Position numbers and translations under genes: made by a program
In this document: positions 1,000-11,540 of the stretch, piece by piece
Layout of the letters: every line of letters begins with the position of its first letter
Numbering within the stretch: position 1 is the stretch's first letter
DNA from: Flectobacillus major DSM 103
Lineage (GTDB): Bacteria > Bacteroidota > Bacteroidia > Cytophagales > Spirosomataceae
Direction of reading: 5' to 3'
NCBI RefSeq assembly: GCF_000427405.1
Contig: NZ_KE386491.1
Coordinates: 4,287,812-4,351,811 of the forward strand
DNA length: 64,000 nt
The notes under the pieces: generated by a model
The model's input: only the letters and a program-made list of their open reading frames with translations
Told to the model about the DNA's origin: nothing
Databases searched by the model: none

Positions 1000-2262
1000 T
1001 TACACCAAAAAGGTAAATAAGTCAGGTTTTTCGTTGAGTAACTGAAACTGAATTTTGTGGTCTTCCATGCGTGTAATAAGCGATTCGTAGTCTTCTTTGC
1101 GTTTCAGCTCGATACCAAGCAATACTGGCCCCGACTCACGGTTGGTTTTTTTCTGATACTCAAAGTGCGTAATATCGTCGTCTTCTCCTAAAACATTATT
1201 CAGGAAATTTCTCAAAGCACCAGCCCTTTGAGGAAAACGAATAATAAAATAGTGTTTTAGCCCTTCATACAACAACGAACGCTCTTTGATTTCTTCGGTA
1301 CGGGTAATATCGTTATTGCCACCCGATACCAAGCATACTACATTTTTTCCTTTGATTTTTTCTTTCATAAAGTCCAATGCTGCAATGGTTAATGCACCAG
1401 CAGGCTCGGCTACAATAGCCGATTCGTTATAAAGTTCGAGAATGGTTGTACAAACTTTTCCTTCTGGAATAAGAATAATATCATCGAGTGTTTCTTTACA
1501 AATTTCAAAAGTTTTGTCGCCAACACGCTTTACTGCCGCACCATCCACAAACTTGTCGATGGTGTCGAGTTCTACAACATGGCCAGCCCGAATACTTTCT
1601 TTCATCGACGGAGCTCCCTCTGGCTCGATACCAATAATTTTGGTATGTGGCGAAAGTTGTTTGAATACCGTAGAAGTACCCGCTGCTACACCGCCACCAC
1701 CAATAGCGAGTAAGATATAATCAATTTTTATATCGGCATCTTTAAAAATTTCAAGGCCAACAGTACCCTGCCCAGCAATCACATCCATATCGTCGAAAGG
1801 GTGTACATACGTAGCATTCTGTTCTTCGCAGTATTTTTTGGCAGCATTAGAGGCATCGTCGTAGGTGTCGCCTACAAGCATGATTTCGATATGTTCACGG
1901 CCAAACATTTTAACAGATTTTATCTTTTGATTGGGGGTAGTAGTTGGCATAAATACCGTTCCTTTTACTTTCATTTTGTGGCAAGCATAGGCCATTCCCT
2001 GAGCATGGTTACCAGCACTAGCACAAACAACCCCTTTGTCGAGGGCCTCTACCGACAGCTTCGACATTTTGTTGTAAGCACCACGAATTTTGTAAGACCT
2101 TACAATTTGTAAATCTTCTCTTTTCAAAAAAATATTAGCCTCATATCTTTCCGAAAGGATAAGATTTTCCATCAAGGGGGTGTGGGTTGCTACGCCACGG
2201 AGGCATTCGGCAGCATCGTAGATACTTTCCAAAGAAGGATAAATAGAAGGTGAATTGTGCAT
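1000..2262 (-). CDS. ilvA: Threonine ammonia-lyase (threonine dehydratase)
   Basis: Converts threonine to 2-oxobutanoate with pyridoxal phosphate, the committed step to isoleucine. The PLP lysine is K58 in RSYKIRGAYNKM, the phosphate-binding glycine loop is GGGG at 188-191, and SGGNND lies further on. After about residue 335 an ACT-like regulatory domain follows; at 420 residues this is the short single-ACT form, shorter than the E. coli enzyme with its doubled domain. It stands apart from ilvDBN, separated by ilvC and an AraC-type gene, on the same strand as ilvDBN. Isoleucine feedback through the C-terminal domain is expected from the family. Confidence 0.96.
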   Translation of the reverse strand: MHNSPSIYPSLESIYDAAECLRGVATHTPLMENLILSERYEANIFLKREDLQIVRSYKIRGAYNKMSKLSVEALDKGVVCASAGNHAQGMAYACHKMKVKGTVFMPTTTPNQKIKSVKMFGREHIEIMLVGDTYDDASNAAKKYCEEQNATYVHPFDDMDVIAGQGTVGLEIFKDADIKIDYILLAIGGGGVAAGTSTVFKQLSPHTKIIGIEPEGAPSMKESIRAGHVVELDTIDKFVDGAAVKRVGDKTFEICKETLDDIILIPEGKVCTTILELYNESAIVAEPAGALTIAALDFMKEKIKGKNVVCLVSGGNNDITRTEEIKERSLLYEGLKHYFIIRFPQRAGALRNFLNNVLGEDDDITHFEYQKKTNRESGPVLLGIELKRKEDYESLITRMEDHKIQFQLLNEKPDLFTFLV

Positions 2263-2394
2263 ATTCGTGGAAAACGCTTTATAGAGTTATTTTGAGAATG
2301 AAGATTGAAGTCGAATGATTTCTGCCAGCAAAGGTAAAAGAATTATCCTATTCCTGACAGGCATTTGATGGCATAAATTGCTTGTCAAGGCGGT

Positions 2395-3285
2395 TTATAA
2401 ATGTTCGTTGGTTTGATGCCTGTACGACAATGGTGACAAATGTGTTAGTTTTTTGAAATACTTGGAAAAATACGATTGGTCAGCAAAGTTGAGCTGATAG
2501 GCTATCTCTGAAATACCCAAGTCGGTATGTTTTAACAAACGTTTTATTTCCATAATCATACGGTCGTTGATAAGGTCGGTAGAGGTACGCCCAGTTACAT
2601 TCTTGACCGTTTCGCTTAGGTGATTGGGCGTTACAGCTAGCAAATGAGCATATTCTTTTACCGAAAGATTTTCTTTACATTTCTCTTCAATCAGTTGTTT
2701 GAAGCGTTTTACCATGATTTTACCCTTATCGGTTCTTTCATCCTGAGCACTAAGAGGATACATTCTTTTACACTGAATAAGTATCAGGTCTAGCAATGCC
2801 CTGATAGCCTCGTCTCGGTCGGGCAAATATTGGTTATGTTCGGCAATAGCCTGCTGAAACAGATTGGTTATTGACAGAATCTCGGCGGTGCTTTCCAGAT
2901 AGATAGGCGGTGTTTCTTGGCTAAGGTTATAAAAAAAAGGAAGTTCAAATAACTTATGAGGGTCGGTTTTATTGAAATGATAAAAAGCCGATGTAAACAA
3001 CAAGATAAACCCCTTAACGTCTTGCGAAAGGTTGAGCTCATGAATTTGTCCAGGCGAAAGGAAAAAAATAGTATAGGGCTGAATAGTATAATGCTGAAAA
3101 TCAATGGTATGAATACCTTCGCCATGAGTTAGGAATAAGATTTCGTAAAAATCATCATGACGGTGCGGGTATGTCACCTTGAAATTACGGTTAATGTCAA
3201 ATAATTCAACCTGATATTGGATAGCGTGGTCTGCTTTGGTATTGAATTTGTCTATACTATAAACAGGGATTTGCTGTTGTTTCAT
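2395..3285 (-). CDS. AraC-family regulator with cupin sensor domain
   Basis: A 296-residue regulator. The N-terminal half is a cupin (AraC-binding-like) with YPHRHDDFYEILFLTHGEG at about 39-57, which includes the H-x-H and downstream Glu typical of the metal-cupin fold. The C-terminal hundred residues carry two helix-turn-helix motifs, the second around LNFADQSYFSKYFKKLTHLSP. It is transcribed divergently from ilvC across a 219-bp spacer, so it is placed to influence ilvC and itself, but no operator could be recognised there. It is not closely similar to the other AraC-type gene at the window start. Confidence 0.9.
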   Translation of the reverse strand: MKQQQIPVYSIDKFNTKADHAIQYQVELFDINRNFKVTYPHRHDDFYEILFLTHGEGIHTIDFQHYTIQPYTIFFLSPGQIHELNLSQDVKGFILLFTSAFYHFNKTDPHKLFELPFFYNLSQETPPIYLESTAEILSITNLFQQAIAEHNQYLPDRDEAIRALLDLILIQCKRMYPLSAQDERTDKGKIMVKRFKQLIEEKCKENLSVKEYAHLLAVTPNHLSETVKNVTGRTSTDLINDRMIMEIKRLLKHTDLGISEIAYQLNFADQSYFSKYFKKLTHLSPLSYRHQTNEHL

Positions 3286-3504
3286 ATTGTAAAATTAGAC
3301 AAGATTGTTTTTTTATAAAAGTTTTAAAATCATGTACTTAAAAAAACACGCAAAATAGTACTAACTATTCTAGCCATAAAAAGTACCTAAATAAACAGTG
3401 AAATAACCAAGTTTTTTTTGAATAAATTGATGAACTTTGTAATTATATTGTGGAAAACCACTTTCGTTAGATAGGCGAAATAAATCTTAAAAAATAAAAA
3501 TACA

Positions 3505-4989
3505 ATGGCGAATTATTTTAACACGCTTCCTCTTAGAGAGAAATTGAATCAATTAGGTGTTTGCGAATTTATGAATAGTGCTGAATTTGCAGATGGCGTA
3601 CAAGCATTAGTAGGTAAGAAAATCGTAATAGTAGGTTGCGGAGCACAAGGTTTGAACCAAGGTTTGAACTTGAGAGATTCAGGTTTGGATGTTTCTTATG
3701 CTTTGCGTCAGGAAGCAATAGATGGTAAAAGACAATCGTGGAAAAGTGCTACTGAAAACAACTTTACTGTAGGTACTTACGAGCAATTGATTCCATCGGC
3801 TGATTTAGTAATTAACCTTACGCCAGACAAACAACATACTTCGGTAGTAAACGCTGTAATGCCTTTGATGAAACAAGGTGCTACACTTTCATATTCGCAC
3901 GGTTTCAATATCGTTGAAGAAGGAATGCAAATCCGTAAAGATATTACTGTAATCATGGTAGCTCCAAAATGCCCAGGTTCAGAGGTGCGTGCCGAATACG
4001 TGCGTGGCTTTGGTGTACCTACTTTGATTGCTGTTCACCCAGAAAACGACCCAGAAGGAAAAGGATGGGCTTATGCAAAAGCATATTGTGCTGGTACAGG
4101 TGGACACCGTGCAGGGGTATTGAAATCTTCTTTTGTAGCTGAGGTTAAGTCTGACTTGATGGGCGAACAAACTATTCTTTGTGGTTTGTTACAAACAGGT
4201 TCTATCCTTTGTTTCGACAAAATGGTTGAAAAAGGTATTGAAGCTGGTTATGCCTCAAAATTAATCCAATACGGTTGGGAAGTAATTACTGAAGCCTTGA
4301 AGCAAGGTGGTATTACTGCTATGTTCGACAGACTCTCAAACCCTGCTAAAATCAAGGCGTATGAAATTTCTGAAGAATTAAAAACTATCATGCGACCATT
4401 GTTCCAAAAACACCAAGATGATATCATGAGTGGTGAGTTCTCTTCTACCATGATGGCTGACTGGGCAAACAATGACATCAACTTGTTGACTTGGAGAGCC
4501 GCAACAGGCGAAACAGCTTTTGAAAAAACACCAGCAGGTGATGTAAAAATTGCTGAACAAGAGTTTTTTGATAATGGTTTGTTAATGGTAGCTATGGTGC
4601 GTGCTGGTGTTGAATTGGCATTTGAAACCATGGTTGAGGCTGGTATCAAAGCTGAGTCGGCTTATTATGAGTCTTTACACGAAACGCCACTTATTGCTAA
4701 TACAATTGCTCGTAGAAAATTATATGAAATGAACTCTGTAATTTCTGATACAGCAGAATACGGATGTTATTTGTTTGACCACGCTTGTAAGCCGTTATTG
4801 GCTGATTTTATGAGTACTGTAGAAACAGATATTATCGGTACAAACTTCAATGCTGGTAAAGATAACGGAGTAGATAACAGAGCATTGATTACTGTAAATA
4901 AAGCGTTGCGTTCGCATCAAATCGAACAAGTAGGAGATGTATTGCGTCAGGCAATGACTGCAATGAAAGCCATTTCTACAGTAGCGTAA
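3505..4989 (+). CDS. ilvC: Ketol-acid reductoisomerase (NADP+), long form
   Basis: Isomerises and reduces 2-acetolactate or 2-aceto-2-hydroxybutanoate to the dihydroxy acids, the second common step of valine and isoleucine synthesis. The Rossmann motif GCGAQG is at 44-49. At 494 residues it matches the class II (E. coli-like, about 490-residue) enzyme with a duplicated knotted C-terminal domain, not the 330-residue class I form. It lies opposite and convergent to ilvN-ilvB-ilvD and shares a strong bidirectional terminator with them. The start ATG follows an A-rich stretch with no Shine-Dalgarno motif, as is usual in this phylum. Confidence 0.97.
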
Positions 4990-5060: not shown

Positions 5061-5591
5061 CTAAACTGTTTGCCAATCACCTTCAGGAAGGTATTCTACC
5101 AATCCTTTTTCTGTTTTTCCTACAGCAACACGTCCAGATTTGAGGTATTCAAGGATTTCCCAGTTTTTGATATATTGATAAAACTCTGCAATCTCTACTT
5201 CTGTACCATTTTTTTCAATCACTACGTAGTCTAAGCCCCAGTGTACTACTTTGGCATTCCAGTCGATATTAATTTCTTTAATATTGAGTGGTGTACCGCC
5301 AAGAGGTGTAGCGATTTTGAAAAGAGCGATTTCATTAAAAACAATTTCGTGGTCGAGATAACCAAAAACGGCCAAAACATCTACCACCTTTCTGATTTGA
5401 CGAACTAATTTTTCTACAGCCTCACGCGAATCGTGACGAATAACAATCGTGAATCGAGATACACCTTGACGTTCGGTTTCACATACAGTAAGCGATTCGA
5501 TATTGAGTCGCCTACGAGTGAAAATAATGGTTATACGGTTCAACAAACCGATTGTATTGGAGGTAAATATGGATAATGTGTATGTTGTCAT
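5061..5591 (-). CDS. ilvN: Acetolactate synthase small (regulatory) subunit
   Basis: Regulatory partner of IlvB that gives the holoenzyme full activity and valine feedback sensitivity. The first 75 or so residues form an ACT domain (opening YTLSIFTSNTIGLLNRITIIFTR in two overlapping stretches, with the Gly-Leu-Leu-Asn-Arg valine-site pattern), followed by the small-subunit C-terminal domain; 176 residues is normal for the family (also called ilvH). It is last in the minus-strand ilvD-ilvB-ilvN series, but is separated from ilvB by 330 bp, which is long for this pair. Confidence 0.95.
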   Translation of the reverse strand: MTTYTLSIFTSNTIGLLNRITIIFTRRRLNIESLTVCETERQGVSRFTIVIRHDSREAVEKLVRQIRKVVDVLAVFGYLDHEIVFNEIALFKIATPLGGTPLNIKEINIDWNAKVVHWGLDYVVIEKNGTEVEIAEFYQYIKNWEILEYLKSGRVAVGKTEKGLVEYLPEGDWQTV

Positions 5592-5921
5592 TGTCTTGAA
5601 AGAGTATTAGAAAAAGGTAAGATGGAGTATTTATACAAAATAAGTTTGATTTTTTTGATTTGTAATTAATTGATAATTAATTATTTAGTTTCAAATCTTA
5701 GAGCTTGTAATACTAGGCTCTTATGTAAGTAATGGAGTACGATTAGATTAGTTTTTGAGCTAAGTTATTGATAAACAAAAAATAAACTCATCACTCATAC
5801 TTATTTTTACCTTTTCTTCAACTTAAATTATGGGGAAATGCTAAGTTTTAGTGCAAGATAAAGCCGTATATATGAACAGAGGGCCTTATCTTGCTAATGA
5901 CTTAAAAGGTTTCCAGAGAAA
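5592..5921. other. 330-bp spacer between ilvB and ilvN
   Basis: No open frame of credible length lies here. It is very A+T-rich, holds the imperfect hairpin listed at 5853-5894 and a short inverted repeat near 5700-5722 (AGAGC ... GCTCT). No clean TAnnTTTG promoter was found for ilvN, so read-through from ilvB remains the simplest assumption. Confidence 0.6.
5853..5894. repeat. Intercistronic hairpin downstream of ilvB
   Basis: GCAAGATAAAGCC at 5853-5865 pairs with GGCCTTATCTTGC at 5882-5894 with one mismatch and a 16-nt loop. It begins 28 bp beyond the ilvB stop on the minus strand and has no T tract, so it is more likely an mRNA processing or stability structure than an efficient terminator. 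Confidence 0.5.
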
Positions 5922-7667
5922 TTACTCCAAAATCACATTGGTTACACAAGCACCTGCAGGTACCATAGGAAACACATTTTCTTCTTTTTCGCAGATAATT
6001 TCCAATAAATAAGGCTTATCAGAATTAAGAAGCGTATCAAGTGATTCTGAAAGCTGAGAGCGGTCAGAAACAGTATGTCCAGCAATACCAAAGCCTTTGG
6101 CAATTGTAATAAAATCAGGGTTTTGTAATTCTACAAACGAATAGCGTTTTTCAAAAAACAATTGTTGCCATTGGCGTACCATTCCCAAGAAATTATTATT
6201 CAAGATAATGATTTTAACAGGTAAGCCACTCTGAGCAATTGTCCCTAACTCTTGCAAAGTCATTTGGAAGCCACCATCACCAATAATAGCAATAACTTCA
6301 CGATTAGGTGCCCCCACTTTGGCTCCAAAGGCAGCAGGAAGAGCAAAGCCCATTGTACCCGCACCCCCCGAAGTAATACTAGAGAAGGGTTTTTTGAAGC
6401 GATAATAACGATTGGCTATCATTTGGTGTTGTCCAACATCGGTAACTGTTACAGCTTCGCCTTTTGTTTTATTAGAAAGCATTACCACGGCTTCGCCCAT
6501 TTTGATTTGGTCGCCTTCGTGGAAAATATCTTTTTTTGTGATTTTTTCGTATTCTACAGCATCGTATTTGGCAAATTCAGCACGCCATTCTTCGTGTGAA
6601 TTGTTTTTTACCAATGGCAACAAAGCCTTGAGTGCCTCTTTGGCATCGCCAACAACAGGGGCATCGGCAATCACGTTTTTATTGATTTCGGCAGGGTCAA
6701 TTTCAATATGAACAACCTTAGCTTGTTTGGCATAGGTTGTTAAATCGCCCGTAATACGGTCGTCAAAACGCATACCAATGGCAATTAACACATCACATTC
6801 GTTGGTCAAAACGTTAGCTCCGTAGTTGCCGTGCATACCCGGCCAGCCTACATACAAAGGGTGGTCGGCATCTACAGCCGACATACCCAAAAGGGTAGTA
6901 GCTACAGGAATACCTGTTTTTTCGATAAATTGATTTAACTCATCCTGAGCGTTGGCCAATAATACACCATGACCAGCCAAGATATAAGGTTTTTTGGCAG
7001 CATTGATTAGCTTGGCTGCCGCTTCTACATGCTCTTGTTTAGGAACAACACGAGGGCGATAGCTAATAATATCAATTTCTTTGCTATAATTAAACGGCTT
7101 AGTCATTTTATCGGTTTGAGCCGTTCTGGTAACCTCAATCAAAACAGGGCCAGGACGACCCGACTCTGCAATATAAAATGCTTTTGCTAAAATTTCTGGA
7201 ATTTCGTTGGCATCTACAATTTGGTAATTCCATTTAGTAACAGGCATCGACATACCGATTATATCACATTCCTGGAAAGCATCAGTACCTAATAAGTTGC
7301 CTTTTACTTGCCCAACGATACAAACCATTGGTGTCGAATCCAACATAGCATCGGCAATAGGAGTCATTAGGTTGGTAGCTCCAGGGCCAGATGTTACCAT
7401 AGCAACGCCCGCACGGTTGGTCATACGAGCATACCCCTGAGCAGCATGACCAGCACCTTGTTCGTGACGTACCAGAATGTGCTTGAGGCTGTCTTGATAA
7501 TCATAAAGAGCATCATACGTAGGCATGATGGCTCCGCCAGGATAGCCGAAGATTGTATCAACACCTTGCTCGACTAAAGATTGCATTATGGCCTGAGCAC
7601 CCGAAAGAAACTGTTGTGTTTCTTTGGCAATTGGCTCTGCGGTCATGGTTTGTGTCTGTGCTGCCAT
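5922..7667 (-). CDS. ilvB: Acetolactate synthase large (catalytic) subunit
   Basis: Thiamine-diphosphate enzyme that condenses two pyruvates, or pyruvate with 2-oxobutanoate, in the first common step of branched-chain synthesis. The catalytic glutamate is E69 in RHEQGAGHAAQGYAR; the ThDP/Mg motif starts GDG at 463-465 and ends NNN near 490-492. The length of 581 residues is typical. It follows ilvD after 148 bp on the same strand. A run of threonines and glutamines before residue 20 is outside the conserved fold; a later start is possible, but the ATG used here is well placed. Confidence 0.97.
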   Translation of the reverse strand: MAAQTQTMTAEPIAKETQQFLSGAQAIMQSLVEQGVDTIFGYPGGAIMPTYDALYDYQDSLKHILVRHEQGAGHAAQGYARMTNRAGVAMVTSGPGATNLMTPIADAMLDSTPMVCIVGQVKGNLLGTDAFQECDIIGMSMPVTKWNYQIVDANEIPEILAKAFYIAESGRPGPVLIEVTRTAQTDKMTKPFNYSKEIDIISYRPRVVPKQEHVEAAAKLINAAKKPYILAGHGVLLANAQDELNQFIEKTGIPVATTLLGMSAVDADHPLYVGWPGMHGNYGANVLTNECDVLIAIGMRFDDRITGDLTTYAKQAKVVHIEIDPAEINKNVIADAPVVGDAKEALKALLPLVKNNSHEEWRAEFAKYDAVEYEKITKKDIFHEGDQIKMGEAVVMLSNKTKGEAVTVTDVGQHQMIANRYYRFKKPFSSITSGGAGTMGFALPAAFGAKVGAPNREVIAIIGDGGFQMTLQELGTIAQSGLPVKIIILNNNFLGMVRQWQQLFFEKRYSFVELQNPDFITIAKGFGIAGHTVSDRSQLSESLDTLLNSDKPYLLEIICEKEENVFPMVPAGACVTNVILE

Positions 7668-7815: not shown

Positions 7816-9492
7816 TTATAAATCCGTCACACAGCCTTCGCTTGCCGACGATACGTTTTTGACATATTTGCGTAACACCCCTTGCTTAAATGGAGACTCG
7901 ATAGGTTTCCATTCTTTACGACGTTCGGCCAACTCTTCGTCAGAAACGTGTACATGAAGGATATTATTAACGGCATCAATAGTGATAAGGTCGCCATCTT
8001 TTACCAAACCGATATTGCCACCTACCTGAGCTTCTGGGGTTACGTGGCCTACCACAAAACCGTGAGTACCACCCGAGAAGCGGCCATCGGTAATCATGGC
8101 TACTTTGTTGCCCAAGCCAGCACCCATTACAGCCGAGGTTGGTTTTAGCATTTCGGGCATTCCAGGGCCGCCCTTAGGGCCTTCATTTCTAATCACAATA
8201 ACATGACCTTCTTTAATTTCGCCCTTTTGTAAATATTCGATAACTTCTTCTTCGCGTTCACAAACCTTGGCAATACCCTCAAATTTCTCTCCTTCTTTTC
8301 CTGTAATTTTGGCTACAGCCCCACCTGTTGCTAAGTTGCCATATAATACCTGCAAGTGTCCAGTAGGTTTGATAGGAGTTGATAAAGGTAAAATGATTTT
8401 TTGAGCATCAAAGTCCAATTCAGGAACATCGGCCAAGTTTTCGGCTACAGTTTTTCCTGTGATTGTCAAACAGTCGCCATGTAAGTAACCTTCCTTCAAC
8501 AAATATTTCATCAAAGCAGGTACACCGCCAATGGCTAGCATATCTTCCATGTAGTATTTACCAGAAGGCTTAAGGTCGGCAATAAGAGGCGTACGGTCTG
8601 AAATCGCTTGGATATCCTTTAAGGTAAAATCTACCTCAGCAGCACGAGCAATCGCCAAATAGTGCAATACGGCGTTGGTAGAGCCACCCATAGCCATTAC
8701 GATTGTCATGGCGTTTTCAAAAGCCTTGCGAGTCATAATGTCACGAGGGCAGATATTTTTCTCTAACAAGTTTTTCATGGCAGCACCAATGGCCAAACAC
8801 TCAGCTTTTTTGCCTTCGTGCGTAGCTGGATACGATGCCGAGTTGGGTAAGGTAAGGCCCATAGCTTCCATCGAAGAAGCCATTGTATTGGCAGTGTACA
8901 TACCACCGCAAGCACCAGCACCAGGGATAGCGTTTTTGATAACACCTTCATAATCTTCGTCAGATATATTTCCTGCGAATTTTTTACCCAATGCTTCAAA
9001 AGCCGAAACAATATCTAACTTTTGTCCTTTGTATTCTCCTGTACGAATTGTACCACCATAAACCAACATAGCAGGTCGGTTAAGACGAGCAATCGCCATC
9101 ATGGCTCCAGGCATATTTTTATCGCAACCAACTACTGCAATAACGCCATCGTACCATTGTGCTCCAACAACGTTTTCGATAGAGTCGGCAATTAAATCAC
9201 GAGACGGCAATGAATAAGACATCCCGTTGTTGCCATTTGTCATACCGTCCGAAACACCGATTGTATGGAAAATCAACCCAACCATTCCGTTCTCTTGAAT
9301 CCCTTTTTTAACGTGTACCGACAGACCATTGAGGTGCATATTACAGGTGTTTCCTTCGTAGCCTGTGCTGGCAATACCAATTTGGGCTTTTTGCATGTCT
9401 TCAGTTGTAAGGCCAATACCATACAACATGGCTTTTGCAGCAGGGTTGGTAATTTCTTGAGTAAGGGTTTTTGAGAATTTGTTCAGTTCCAT
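7816..9492 (-). CDS. ilvD: Dihydroxy-acid dehydratase
   Basis: Dehydrates 2,3-dihydroxy-isovalerate and the isoleucine counterpart to the 2-oxo acids. The three conserved iron-sulfur cysteines are visible: C50 in GNTCNMHL, C123 in GCDKNMPG and C195 in GAGACGGMY, with [10 protein letters not shown] and GRFSGGTHG downstream. The length of 558 residues is normal. First gene of the minus-strand ilvDBN unit; its 5-prime leader carries a promoter, a branched-chain-rich leader ORF and a terminator hairpin, described separately, so its expression is probably set by attenuation. Confidence 0.97.
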
Positions 9493-9617
9493 AACTTAAA
9501 AGATGCTTTATTTGACGTAACTAATGATTCGCTTTGATGATTGAATTGGGAGTAATTTAGTTTTTGTACTTTTTGTTTATTTTTTGTCTTATTTTAAGTT
9601 GTATATTTCTGTATAAC

Positions 9618-9653
9618 AAAAGACCTTTCTCGATACAATGAGAAAGGTCTTTT
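9618..9653 (-). terminator. Putative attenuator terminator in the ilvD leader
   Basis: A perfect 14-bp stem (9618-9631 with 9640-9653, AAAAGACCTTTCTC type) with an 8-nt loop. Read on the minus strand it ends in TTTTGTTAT. It lies 27 bp downstream of the leader ORF stop and 125 bp before the ilvD start, where a terminator makes sense only as a regulated one. I could not find a clear antiterminator pairing by eye. Confidence 0.75.
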
Positions 9654-9679
9654 AGAAAAATCTATAATAGAAACCCGTC

Positions 9680-9742
9680 TCATACTATACAGCTGAGTAG
9701 AATGACAACGAGGACAATATTTACCAATTTAGAAATATTCAT
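9680..9742 (-). CDS. Branched-chain-rich leader peptide of the ilvDBN unit
   Basis: A 20-codon ORF (ATG at 9742, TGA at 9680-9682) encoding MNISKLVNIVLVVILLSCIV. Thirteen of twenty residues are Leu, Val or Ile, including an unbroken block of eight from residue 9 to 16. It sits between a good promoter match (9787-9818) and a strong terminator hairpin (9618-9653), upstream of ilvD. This matches the logic of ilv leader peptides in other bacteria, in which ribosome stalling at Leu/Val/Ile codons prevents termination. The peptide would also pass as a short hydrophobic segment, so translation needs proof. Confidence 0.72.
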   Translation of the reverse strand: MNISKLVNIVLVVILLSCIV

Positions 9743-9751
9743 ACTTTATTT

Positions 9752-9765
9752 AGCGAATTTTCGCT
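9752..9765. promoter_or_regulatory. Palindrome AGCGAA-TT-TTCGCT, copy 1
   Basis: AGCGAATTTTCGCT is an inverted repeat of 6-bp arms around TT. It lies just upstream of the leader-peptide ATG and about 15 bp downstream of the predicted ilv transcription start. A nearly identical site in the same orientation is at 9994-10007; flanking bases TTT before and TGTTTT after also match. Could be an operator or an RNA hairpin in the leader. Confidence 0.5.
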
Positions 9766-9786
9766 GATGTTTTATTCAGTACTTTA

Positions 9787-9818
9787 CAAATATACAGATG
9801 TTAATTTTTTAATTGCAA
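9787..9818 (-). promoter_or_regulatory. Predicted promoter of the ilv leader and ilvDBN
   Basis: On the minus strand TTG (9818-9816), 21 bp, then TATATTTG (9794-9787) gives an exact match to the Bacteroidota housekeeping consensus TTG-N17-23-TAnnTTTG. Transcription would begin near 9780, 38 bp before the leader ORF. Confidence 0.65.
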
Positions 9819-9993
9819 GAAATTTCCAAATAAAATTTTAGTAATAAATACTTATGCCAATTATAATTTTGGGAAAATTAGGGTGTTTTTAGTGGAATAA
9901 TCCTGTTTTTTTACTTTTTTTAGTAGATAATTCTGTTTATAAATAAGGAATTAAAATATTATTTTTTATGAAAAAATACCATATTTATGTTTT

Positions 9994-10007
9994 AGCGAAA
10001 ATTCGCT
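9994..10007. promoter_or_regulatory. Palindrome AGCGAA-AA-TTCGCT, copy 2
   Basis: Same 6-bp arms as the site at 9752-9765, 242 bp away, with the centre AA instead of TT. It lies 25 bp past the stop of the serine hydrolase gene, about 180 bp upstream of the predicted ilv promoter on the minus strand. The pairing suggests a two-site operator, but no cognate regulator is identified. Confidence 0.45.
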
Positions 10008-10031
10008 ACTGTTTTTCGGTAAGAAATTACC

Positions 10032-11540
10032 TTACTTTTTATTGAAAATAATCTCACCTGCATTAGGAATGGATGCCTTTATCTGATAGATTTCACCTTT
10101 GAGGTTACTCTCAAATTCGAGTGGTACATTCTCCCACAATTCATTGCCCATAAAGTAATCGTAATGAAAATGCGTTAGCTCAAACGACCTATTATGATAG
10201 GTAGCCCGAAGCCCTCGGTCGGTTTTATAAATTTGTAATATTCCGTAAGCGGGGTGTTCAAAAATACCTGTATAAAAATCGATATGATGCGACATCGCTG
10301 CTCCTATTTTTCTATTGGCGGCCATAGCTTTGGTCTTTTTTTCTTCTTCAAATCGGGCATCTTCTCGGTCTTTCTTATAACGCTGATTCCAATCTATGCT
10401 ATTGAGTTCAAGGAGTTGGTCTGCAATATAATTAGTTACCGTATTCACAAAGAAATAGTCGGCATCGCTGGTATTCGTGGTAATAAAAATCCCAAGCCCA
10501 TTGTTAGGAAATACGGTCATCTGCGAGCGGTAGCCCTCAATCGACCCATTGTGCTGCGAACGCTGAGCTCCACGGTAAACATTGAGGTTCCAGCCCATGC
10601 CATAAGTAGCAAAACCCAGTTCGGGATATTTGGCTTCGGCAGGCCATACTACTTGAATAGGCGTGTGGTTTTCTTTGAGGTTCTTTTCCGAAATAATAGG
10701 TTGGTCATTAAACTTACCTTTTTGTAACTGTAATAACAGCCAATTAGTCATATCAATTGTATTGGATTTTATAGCTCCTGCTGGGCCAATGGCATCGACA
10801 TTACTGGCAAAGCCTACCTCTACCCAATTGCCCTTATCTTCTTTGTAAGACAGAGCGTAGTCGGTGCTTTTAAATAGTTCGGGATAAGTCAAAACAGTAC
10901 TGTTCATATTGAGCGGAGTTAAAATACGCTCTTTTACAAAGGCTTCCCAGCTTTTTCCAGCAACCTTTTCTACCAAAATACCTGCTACCATATACATAAG
11001 ATTATTGTACTGATATTGGTCATAGGGCTGCTTGGACAGCTGTAAATACTTCAGTCGCTCATAAATTGCCTGACGGTTGAGATTACTAAAAAGCCAAACA
11101 AAATCGTGGCGAGGCAAACCTGTACGGTGCGACAGTAAATCGCGAACAGTGATAAGATGTTCGGCTTCGATATTACTTAGCTGAAAGTCGGGCAAATAGT
11201 TTTTTACGGGTTTGTTCCATTCTATTTTGCCTTCGTCGACCAAAATGGCTAGGGCTGCTGCTGTAAACGACTTGCTACACGAAGCAATCGGAAATAGTGT
11301 TTGGGCGGTAACAGCCTGTTTTGTTTGTTGGTTTTTAAGGCCAAAACCTCCATTAAAATAGCTTTTACCATCTTTGACAATACTTATGGCACAGCCAGGT
11401 ACTTTCCATTCGGTCATCATCTGATACACAAAATTCTGGATATTAGCTGTGGGATCTTCGGCCTGTTTGCCCTTTTTTTGGGCTAGAATAGGCATACTCA
11501 GTAATAATAATAGAGCGATATAAGGTTTAAAATGTTTCAT
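10032..11540 (-). CDS. Exported serine hydrolase (beta-lactamase class C / PBP4* family)
   Basis: A 502-residue secreted or periplasmic hydrolase. The chosen start at 11540 gives a standard signal peptide (MKHFKPYIALLLLLSMPILAQ, written across the cut site); an upstream ATG would add 18 residues and spoil it. Motifs of the penicillin-binding-like fold are present: nucleophile S87 and K90 in SCSKS, YNN as the Y-x-N element, and HNGSIEGYRS in place of the KTG box. A C-terminal extension of about 100 residues (after YIADQLLELNS) resembles the DUF3471-type domain often fused here. Substrate (D-amino peptide, ester or lactam) cannot be told from sequence. Monocistronic. Confidence 0.9.
   Translation of the reverse strand: MKHFKPYIALLLLLSMPILAQKKGKQAEDPTANIQNFVYQMMTEWKVPGCAISIVKDGKSYFNGGFGLKNQQTKQAVTAQTLFPIASCSKSFTAAALAILVDEGKIEWNKPVKNYLPDFQLSNIEAEHLITVRDLLSHRTGLPRHDFVWLFSNLNRQAIYERLKYLQLSKQPYDQYQYNNLMYMVAGILVEKVAGKSWEAFVKERILTPLNMNSTVLTYPELFKSTDYALSYKEDKGNWVEVGFASNVDAIGPAGAIKSNTIDMTNWLLLQLQKGKFNDQPIISEKNLKENHTPIQVVWPAEAKYPELGFATYGMGWNLNVYRGAQRSQHNGSIEGYRSQMTVFPNNGLGIFITTNTSDADYFFVNTVTNYIADQLLELNSIDWNQRYKKDREDARFEEEKKTKAMAANRKIGAAMSHHIDFYTGIFEHPAYGILQIYKTDRGLRATYHNRSFELTHFHYDYFMGNELWENVPLEFESNLKGEIYQIKASIPNAGEIIFNKK

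Follow-up and report, generated by a model that had tools for sequence, protein, structure and literature searches.

Is the ilvD gene of Flectobacillus major DSM 103 controlled by a leader peptide, as the arrangement of its upstream region suggests? Leader-peptide attenuation is a classical mode of control for genes of branched-chain amino acid (BCAA) synthesis, known in the enteric ilvGMEDA, ilvBN and leuABCD operons, and it depends on RNA polymerase and the first ribosome advancing in step. The window analyzed here is the 64,000-nucleotide stretch at positions 4,287,812 to 4,351,811 of contig NZ_KE386491.1. From its letters, an earlier note had described a promoter, a 20-codon open reading frame (ORF), a terminator hairpin and an ilvDBN operon on the minus strand. 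The corresponding elements, in window positions, are:

9787-9818, minus strand: promoter, TTG (9818-9816)-N20-TATATTTG (9794-9787), read from the sequence.
9680-9742, minus strand: putative leader ORF MNISKLVNIVLVVILLSCIV, 20 codons, from ATG at 9742 to TGA at 9682-9680, identified from the sequence and from comparable leaders in relatives.
9612-9653, minus strand: predicted intrinsic terminator, stem 9653-9640/9631-9618 with a tail to 9612, based on sequence, fold and 15 aligned leaders.
7816-9492, minus strand: ilvD, dihydroxy-acid dehydratase, start at 9492, the gene behind the putative attenuator (TIGR00110, 706.1 bits, over cut-off).
5922-7667, minus strand: ilvB, acetolactate synthase large subunit (TIGR00118, 711.7 bits, over cut-off).
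5061-5591, minus strand: ilvN, acetolactate synthase small subunit (TIGR00119, 107.5 bits, over cut-off).

The promoter had been placed correctly at 9818-9787 of the minus strand. We take it to be of the Bacteroidota -33/-7 type, and the same TTG-N20-TATATTTG arrangement is present in the leaders of G001-G004, G008 and G013. A generic scan for sigma-70 promoters and terminators did not list the real terminator at 9653-9618 and flagged instead the two palindromes described below. The gene identities implied by the name ilvDBN were borne out by NCBIfam models, as was that of ilvA, also above cut-off. A single ilvDBN transcript is not established, because ilvB and ilvN are 330 nt apart. By eye, this gap (5592-5921) contains a long inverted repeat, GCAAGATAA...TTATCTTGC, and could hold a processing site or a separate promoter for ilvN. 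The ilvC gene (494 aa; window 3505-4989) lies on the opposite strand, converging on ilvN, and no BCAA leader was found by eye upstream of it.

The leader ORF is likewise as first described, with Leu, Val or Ile at 13 of 20 residues and an uninterrupted block of eight at codons 9-16. When the window's 500-nt upstream region was subjected to 1000 dinucleotide shuffles, 69 of them contained a comparable ORF (12-30 codons, at least 45% I/L/V). By itself the ORF is therefore not significant, and the rest of the case is comparative. A TIGR00110 search in 59 genomes provided ilvD upstream regions, usable in 35 of the 37 genomes of the window's family: in G010 only 19 nt of contig precede ilvD, in G028 no ilvD exceeds the cut-off, and G006 was retained despite an ilvD split in two pieces. 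Both ilvD and its paralogue in G006 (G006:C2:3675051-3676666 and 4274000-4275600) are matched in two pieces and hence look frameshifted, which may reflect sequencing indels.

In 20 of the 35 usable family genomes, the promoter-leader-terminator arrangement was recognized by eye immediately ahead of ilvD. In G009 it lies about 0.7 kb upstream, separated from the gene by an ORF that resembles a four-helix-bundle protein (TIGR02436; a 59-residue piece scored 25.4 bits). The remaining 14 show no such element at ilvD, and the second ilvD copies of G002 and G019 are without an attenuator. Outside the family, G052, from another family of the order, presents the arrangement with quite different letters. 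Short BCAA-rich ORFs occur in 19 of the 35 family ilvD regions, against a shuffled mean of 1.9 and a maximum of 6 in 200 runs. Three of these 19 regions (G009, G011, G017) hold ORFs unattached to any attenuator, and the attenuators of G014, G026, G035 and G036 fall below the ORF threshold.

The proposed 14-bp hairpin ahead of ilvD proved to be a perfect stem with an 8-nt loop. An antiterminator, which the earlier note had not found by eye, does exist: folding of the leader gives mutually exclusive structures that share the 9653-9638 region, with the following elements:

9671-9683, minus strand: predicted antiterminator 5' arm, overlapping the leader stop codon (fold, duplex energy, covariation).
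9638-9653, minus strand: predicted antiterminator 3' arm, comprising the terminator 5' arm and two loop bases (fold, duplex energy, covariation).
9695-9718, minus strand: putative control codons 9-16, Ile Val Leu Val Val Ile Leu Leu, the last of which starts 14 nt upstream of the antiterminator arm.

The lowest-energy structure of 9685-9634 is the antiterminator (-13.0 kcal/mol, z -2.6, 3 of 200 shuffles as good), and in a fold of 9685-9611 the terminator prevails once its 3' arm is present (z -3.5, 1 of 200 shuffles as good). Pairing in the window's antiterminator is imperfect, involving nine of ten core positions, one of them as G-U. A protector (1:2) hairpin, seen by eye in relatives such as G006, G016, G018 and G032, is weak in the window (-4.8 kcal/mol).

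These elements suggest that the window holds a ribosome-mediated attenuator. As RNA polymerase moves along the leader, a ribosome would follow on the 20-codon ORF, which we infer to be translated. Where the supply of charged Leu-, Val- and Ile-tRNA suffices, this ribosome would reach the stop codon within arm 9683-9671 and mask it, so that the terminator at 9653-9618 would form before ilvD. If one of these charged tRNAs were short, the ribosome would stall within codons 9-16 with its leading edge short of the arm, which would then be free to pair with 9653-9638, preventing the terminator and allowing ilvD to be transcribed. Both structures would thus be expected to form in the cell, and starvation for Leu, Val or Ile, with its low tRNA charging, would raise expression.

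Comparison of the arms in relatives argues for this pairing. Twenty-one leaders were located by hand, and 20 were put into MAFFT (G003, a near-copy of G002, was omitted); five rows were misaligned (G026, G030, G031, G032 and G052), so the model alignment (A2) comprises 15 leaders. In these 15, the terminator is paired in 97.8% of cells, with five pairs changed on both sides and a covariation score of 0.402, compared to 0.199 in shuffles; two of five measures were reached by shuffles (both-side changes in 22 of 500, further pair types in 478). The antiterminator helix is paired at 80.5%, with four pairs changed on both sides, and versions of the helix slid out of place pair at most 59.7%. Three of the five antiterminator measures beat all 500 shuffles, and two were reached by them (both-side changes in 60, further pair types in 368). 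With arms set by hand in 20 family leaders (G052 left out), 171 of 200 positions pair, compared to 157.2 +/- 2.6 after shuffling, and 0 of 10000 permutations were as high, a figure inflated, as in all the permutation tests of arm pairing, by the relatedness of the leaders. Arm pairs that have changed independently include GTGAAGAAGG/CCTTCTTCAC in G030 and GTGGGGAGGGG/CCTTTTCCCAC in G052.

A larger set of leaders was obtained with a covariance model (R1). In 200 family genomes, 157 match at the permissive threshold of E 1, a figure that should not be taken for the number of true elements. Seventy of the listed matches were examined, consisting of the 30 best, all before ilvD, and 40 chosen ones, 20 of them as guessed leuA elements. 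In this selection, which is no census, 35 precede ilvD, 27 leuA and two an EamA transporter; the other six, with E from 2.9e-6 to 4.0e-4, precede none of these and indicate the chance background. The window's own genome (G000) has three candidate elements. The one at ilvD scores 83.7 bits; that at leuA, with leader MKNKYTKNTLLIIQLLALV, lies 2.1 kb beyond the left end of the window (C6:4285638-4285748, 47.2 bits); and that at an EamA transporter, with leader MTYSVAILVWLNLLISKD, is weak (C6:3174583, 27.4 bits, E 0.011). An EamA-like transporter is preceded by a Leu-containing leader and a terminator in G008, G000 and G061 (L101, L111, L140), and is possibly under BCAA control.

For duplex energies, 87 sources were used and gave 112 matches; near-copies (e.g. 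L064, L072, L078, L079, L123 and L138) were omitted, as was L141, which is cut at a contig edge and was excluded from the counts. Removal of 17 antisense copies and of the spurious L069:830 and L077:2212, and merging of identical arm pairs, left 85 distinct leaders. Across the 85, antiterminator arms form duplexes of -18.3 kcal/mol on average with their own partners versus -14.0 kcal/mol when swapped, and 0 of 5000 permutations were as low, in a test that fixes no register. Individually, 78 pair better than their own swapped mean and seven do no better.

The position of the control codons provides a further line of evidence. Given the distance between the A-site codon and the leading edge of a ribosome, control codons are expected at least about 12 nt upstream of the arm. 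In the 21 leaders located without the model, 164 of 208 codons that begin 12-41 nt ahead of the arm specify I, L or V, as against 2 of 47 among those that begin 3-11 nt ahead of it. The same spacing is seen in 84 distinct leaders, a set obtained in part with the model built from 15 ilvD leaders; in the leuA leaders it holds for Leu taken by itself. Val is frequent (9 of 12) at the codon that touches the arm, since the arm sequence itself reads GTG there. As far as spacing goes, control codons ending about 12 nt before the arm agree with the masking prediction, in which a stalled ribosome would free the arm and one at the stop codon would cover it.

The leader amino acids match the operon behind. 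In the 84 distinct leaders (peptide counts also omit L153:1670 and L154:1670, in which no leader ORF was found, and three EamA leaders), an internal Val, the last residue excluded, occurs in all 62 leaders in front of ilvD or ilvE as first gene versus 4 of 22 leuA leaders, and the ratio of Leu to Ile plus Val is 177:403 in the former and 94:48 in the latter. Codon choice also differs from that of the leaders' own downstream genes (82 leaders): Leu codons favor CTC and CTA (0.37 and 0.22 versus 0.13 and 0.04) and Val codons favor GTC (0.45 versus 0.10), a lean that may serve either sensitivity or pairing with the arm. The comparison with relatives put forward in the earlier note thus came out in its favor: the Leu/Val/Ile-rich ORF ahead of a terminator recurs, its arms show compensatory changes and its composition follows the operon, and the check named there, for an ORF lacking conservation or enrichment in relatives, did not refute the proposal.

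These data also bear on the reading that the ORF encodes a functional small hydrophobic, perhaps membrane, peptide, with the terminator merely ending its short transcript. The window's peptide is indeed short, hydrophobic and followed by a terminator, but the peptides vary widely apart from their I/L/V content, and leuA-type leaders such as MENNSTNKSFIIIKLLAD or MIQRNLLRLTWS are not membrane-like. Control codons that hold their spacing to the arm, and arms that co-vary, also speak against such a function, which we regard as very unlikely.

A leader that is structured and ends in a terminator could also belong to a sequence-specific arrest peptide or to a metabolite-binding riboswitch, in place of control by tRNA charging. 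Neither a T-box nor any other Rfam cis-regulatory family matched in the window at curated scores, and the best match below threshold in 9400-10050 (E 0.24) is unrelated. The peptide sequence varies within I/L/V, and inspection by eye showed nothing conserved apart from the arms; we regard this explanation as extremely improbable. The locus combines clustered codons for the end products, a terminator between ORF and gene, and a mutually exclusive antiterminator supported by sequence, energy and covariation, as a leader-peptide attenuator should. As judged from sequence comparison, it is very probably a transcription attenuator of the classical ribosome-mediated kind, serving ilvD and probably also ilvB.

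A second candidate level of control is a palindrome, one copy of which lies between the promoter and the leader ORF:

9750-9767, no strand assigned: palindrome TTAGCGAATTTTCGCTGA, probable DNA operator just past the expected start site (pattern counts, relatives).
9992-10009, no strand assigned: another copy of this palindrome, located 242 bp farther upstream (pattern match).

The spacing of these copies (TTAGCGAAWWTTCGCTAA type) corresponds to about 23 helical turns in the window and is 241-242 bp in G001-G004, G013 (241) and G061, which would suit a looping repressor. A strict pattern, AGYGAAWWTTCRCT, yields two sites in the window and five in the genome, and its reversed control none. One of the other three genomic sites lies between an XRE-type regulator and the genes for malate synthase and isocitrate lyase; the remaining two precede an ORF with an SCP2 domain and a GAPDH-like gene, respectively. 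The looser pattern GYGAAWWTTCRC has 10 sites in the window's genome versus one for its reversed control, and shows no excess in some relatives (5 versus 6 in G018, 2 versus 4 in G019). An RNA hairpin was considered less likely, as 7 of 29 copies carry a pairing-breaking change (GCGAA..TTCAC) and one a pairing-keeping G-U; the palindrome is probably a DNA operator.

Control might then be exerted mainly at initiation, by a repressor on palindrome 9767-9750, with the leader setting basal termination only. The looser pattern is found in the ilvD upstream region of 29 of the 35 family genomes, attenuator-less ones included. Its distance from the promoter hardly varies, being in most cases 18-22 nt from a TTTG/TTTA that we take as the -7 element upstream of it. 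Such a repressor leaves unexplained the covariation, the codon spacing and the difference between leuA and ilvD leaders, and the pattern occurs in 0 of 13 ilvD regions outside the family, though attenuators occur in other families. We consider it highly unlikely that the repressor dominates, and repression at the palindrome and attenuation can coexist.

A candidate for the protein acting at the palindrome is encoded at locus L056 (G000:C6:588575-590065), where a palindrome (3632-3645) separates a regulator with HTH_3 and Peptidase_M78 (XRE/IrrE) domains (2073-3566), distantly like RamB, from malate synthase and isocitrate lyase. Its identification as RamB itself (NF038139) was rejected, at 46.7 bits against a cut-off of 700. 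A palindrome site lies within 300 nt upstream of 10 of the 27 regulator homologs tested (30 loci minus three partial ones). Among the 35 family genomes, the ilvD palindrome is absent from all three that have no regulator and present in 29 of the 32 that do (Fisher 0.003), with regulator presence in G012, G013 and G017 resting on fragments. G070, which has the regulator and lacks the palindrome, goes against a link. The link between this regulator and the ilvD palindrome is hence tentative and suggestive only.

The putative attenuators extend beyond the family. In 291 genomes of the order, 14 of the loci fetched lie outside the family; all 13 of these that were read carry such leaders, and they come from five further families. 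The first gene is ilvE in ten of the 13, with ilvD seen behind it in nine, and ilvD in three. Among 296 genomes of the phylum, 21 match R1 at E <= 1e-4; since R1 was trained on one family, misses in distant genomes are expected. In 20 out-of-family loci examined by tblastn, ilvE, ilvD or ilvA lies within 0.8 kb in 14, a neighboring ORF was read as the acetolactate synthase small subunit in two (one of them, tested as a 120-residue piece, scored 43.2 bits against a cut-off of 119), and nothing relevant was found nearby in four. Several out-of-family leaders have Ile and Val without Leu (MKTNSNIIIISIIIRSFE). Tandem attenuator-like sites were observed before ilvD or ilvE in L097, L147, L148, L152, L153, L154 and G691 (L195/L214); no leader ORF was found at the second sites of L153 and L154, and the two leader peptides of G691 differ by one residue.

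A wider reading of these results, which we hold to be possible but rather doubtful, is that leader-peptide attenuators occur throughout the phylum, re-tuned per gene (Ile/Val before ilvE-ilvD, mixed before ilvD, Leu before leuA) and operating on ribosomes without Shine-Dalgarno pairing, and that in the window's family they are layered on a repressor site shared with the glyoxylate-shunt locus. If so, close coupling of transcription and translation would be required in the phylum, and ilvD would read both tRNA charging and a central-carbon signal. In the literature consulted on such coupling in the phylum, we found nothing that settles the matter. This question could be assayed directly with a naturally occurring attenuator whose relatives in the same genome are tuned differently, and the attenuator family would allow control of BCAA synthesis to be predicted from sequence in many genomes.

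The element in the window is a classical leader-peptide attenuator and not a new kind. Like those of the enteric ilvGMEDA, ilvBN and leuABCD operons, it has a BCAA-rich leader ORF, control codons and an antiterminator sharing the 5' arm of the terminator, and the choice of leader amino acids follows the operon. Unlike them, the present family has a Shine-Dalgarno-like motif (GGAG, GAGG or AGGA) upstream of 1 of 83 leader starts, a stop codon in or just before the antiterminator arm, and the recurring arm GTGAG/CTCAC. The near absence of Shine-Dalgarno motifs is as expected, because Bacteroidia ribosomes are described as not recognizing them (PMC9976891, PMC6847099). Together with the promoter type, it is consistent with the placement in Cytophagales.

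Within the same phylum, signs of leader-peptide attenuation have likewise been described, as clues ahead of amino-acid operons in Flavobacterium psychrophilum (PMC9723704) and as leader-like sORFs in 5' UTRs of Bacteroides thetaiotaomicron (PMC7366714); the string 'ilv' occurs 0 times in the main texts of these two papers. No description of the ilvD/leuA attenuator family was found in the sources consulted; a 2010 survey by Lopatovskaya and co-workers may cover part of that family. The Corynebacterium ilvB-II motif and the ilvB-OMG uORF motif combine a BCAA-rich uORF and a terminator ahead of an ilv gene, and ilvB-II, like the present element, also has a predicted antiterminator (PMC10272879). 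The ilvB-II motif is described there as lying upstream of ilvB, once per genome, whereas the present family is found before ilvD, ilvE-ilvD, leuA and EamA genes, with three candidates in the window's genome. The principle of attenuation is classical, and it is traced here, by comparison of sequences, in a bacterial group in which it has hardly been studied.
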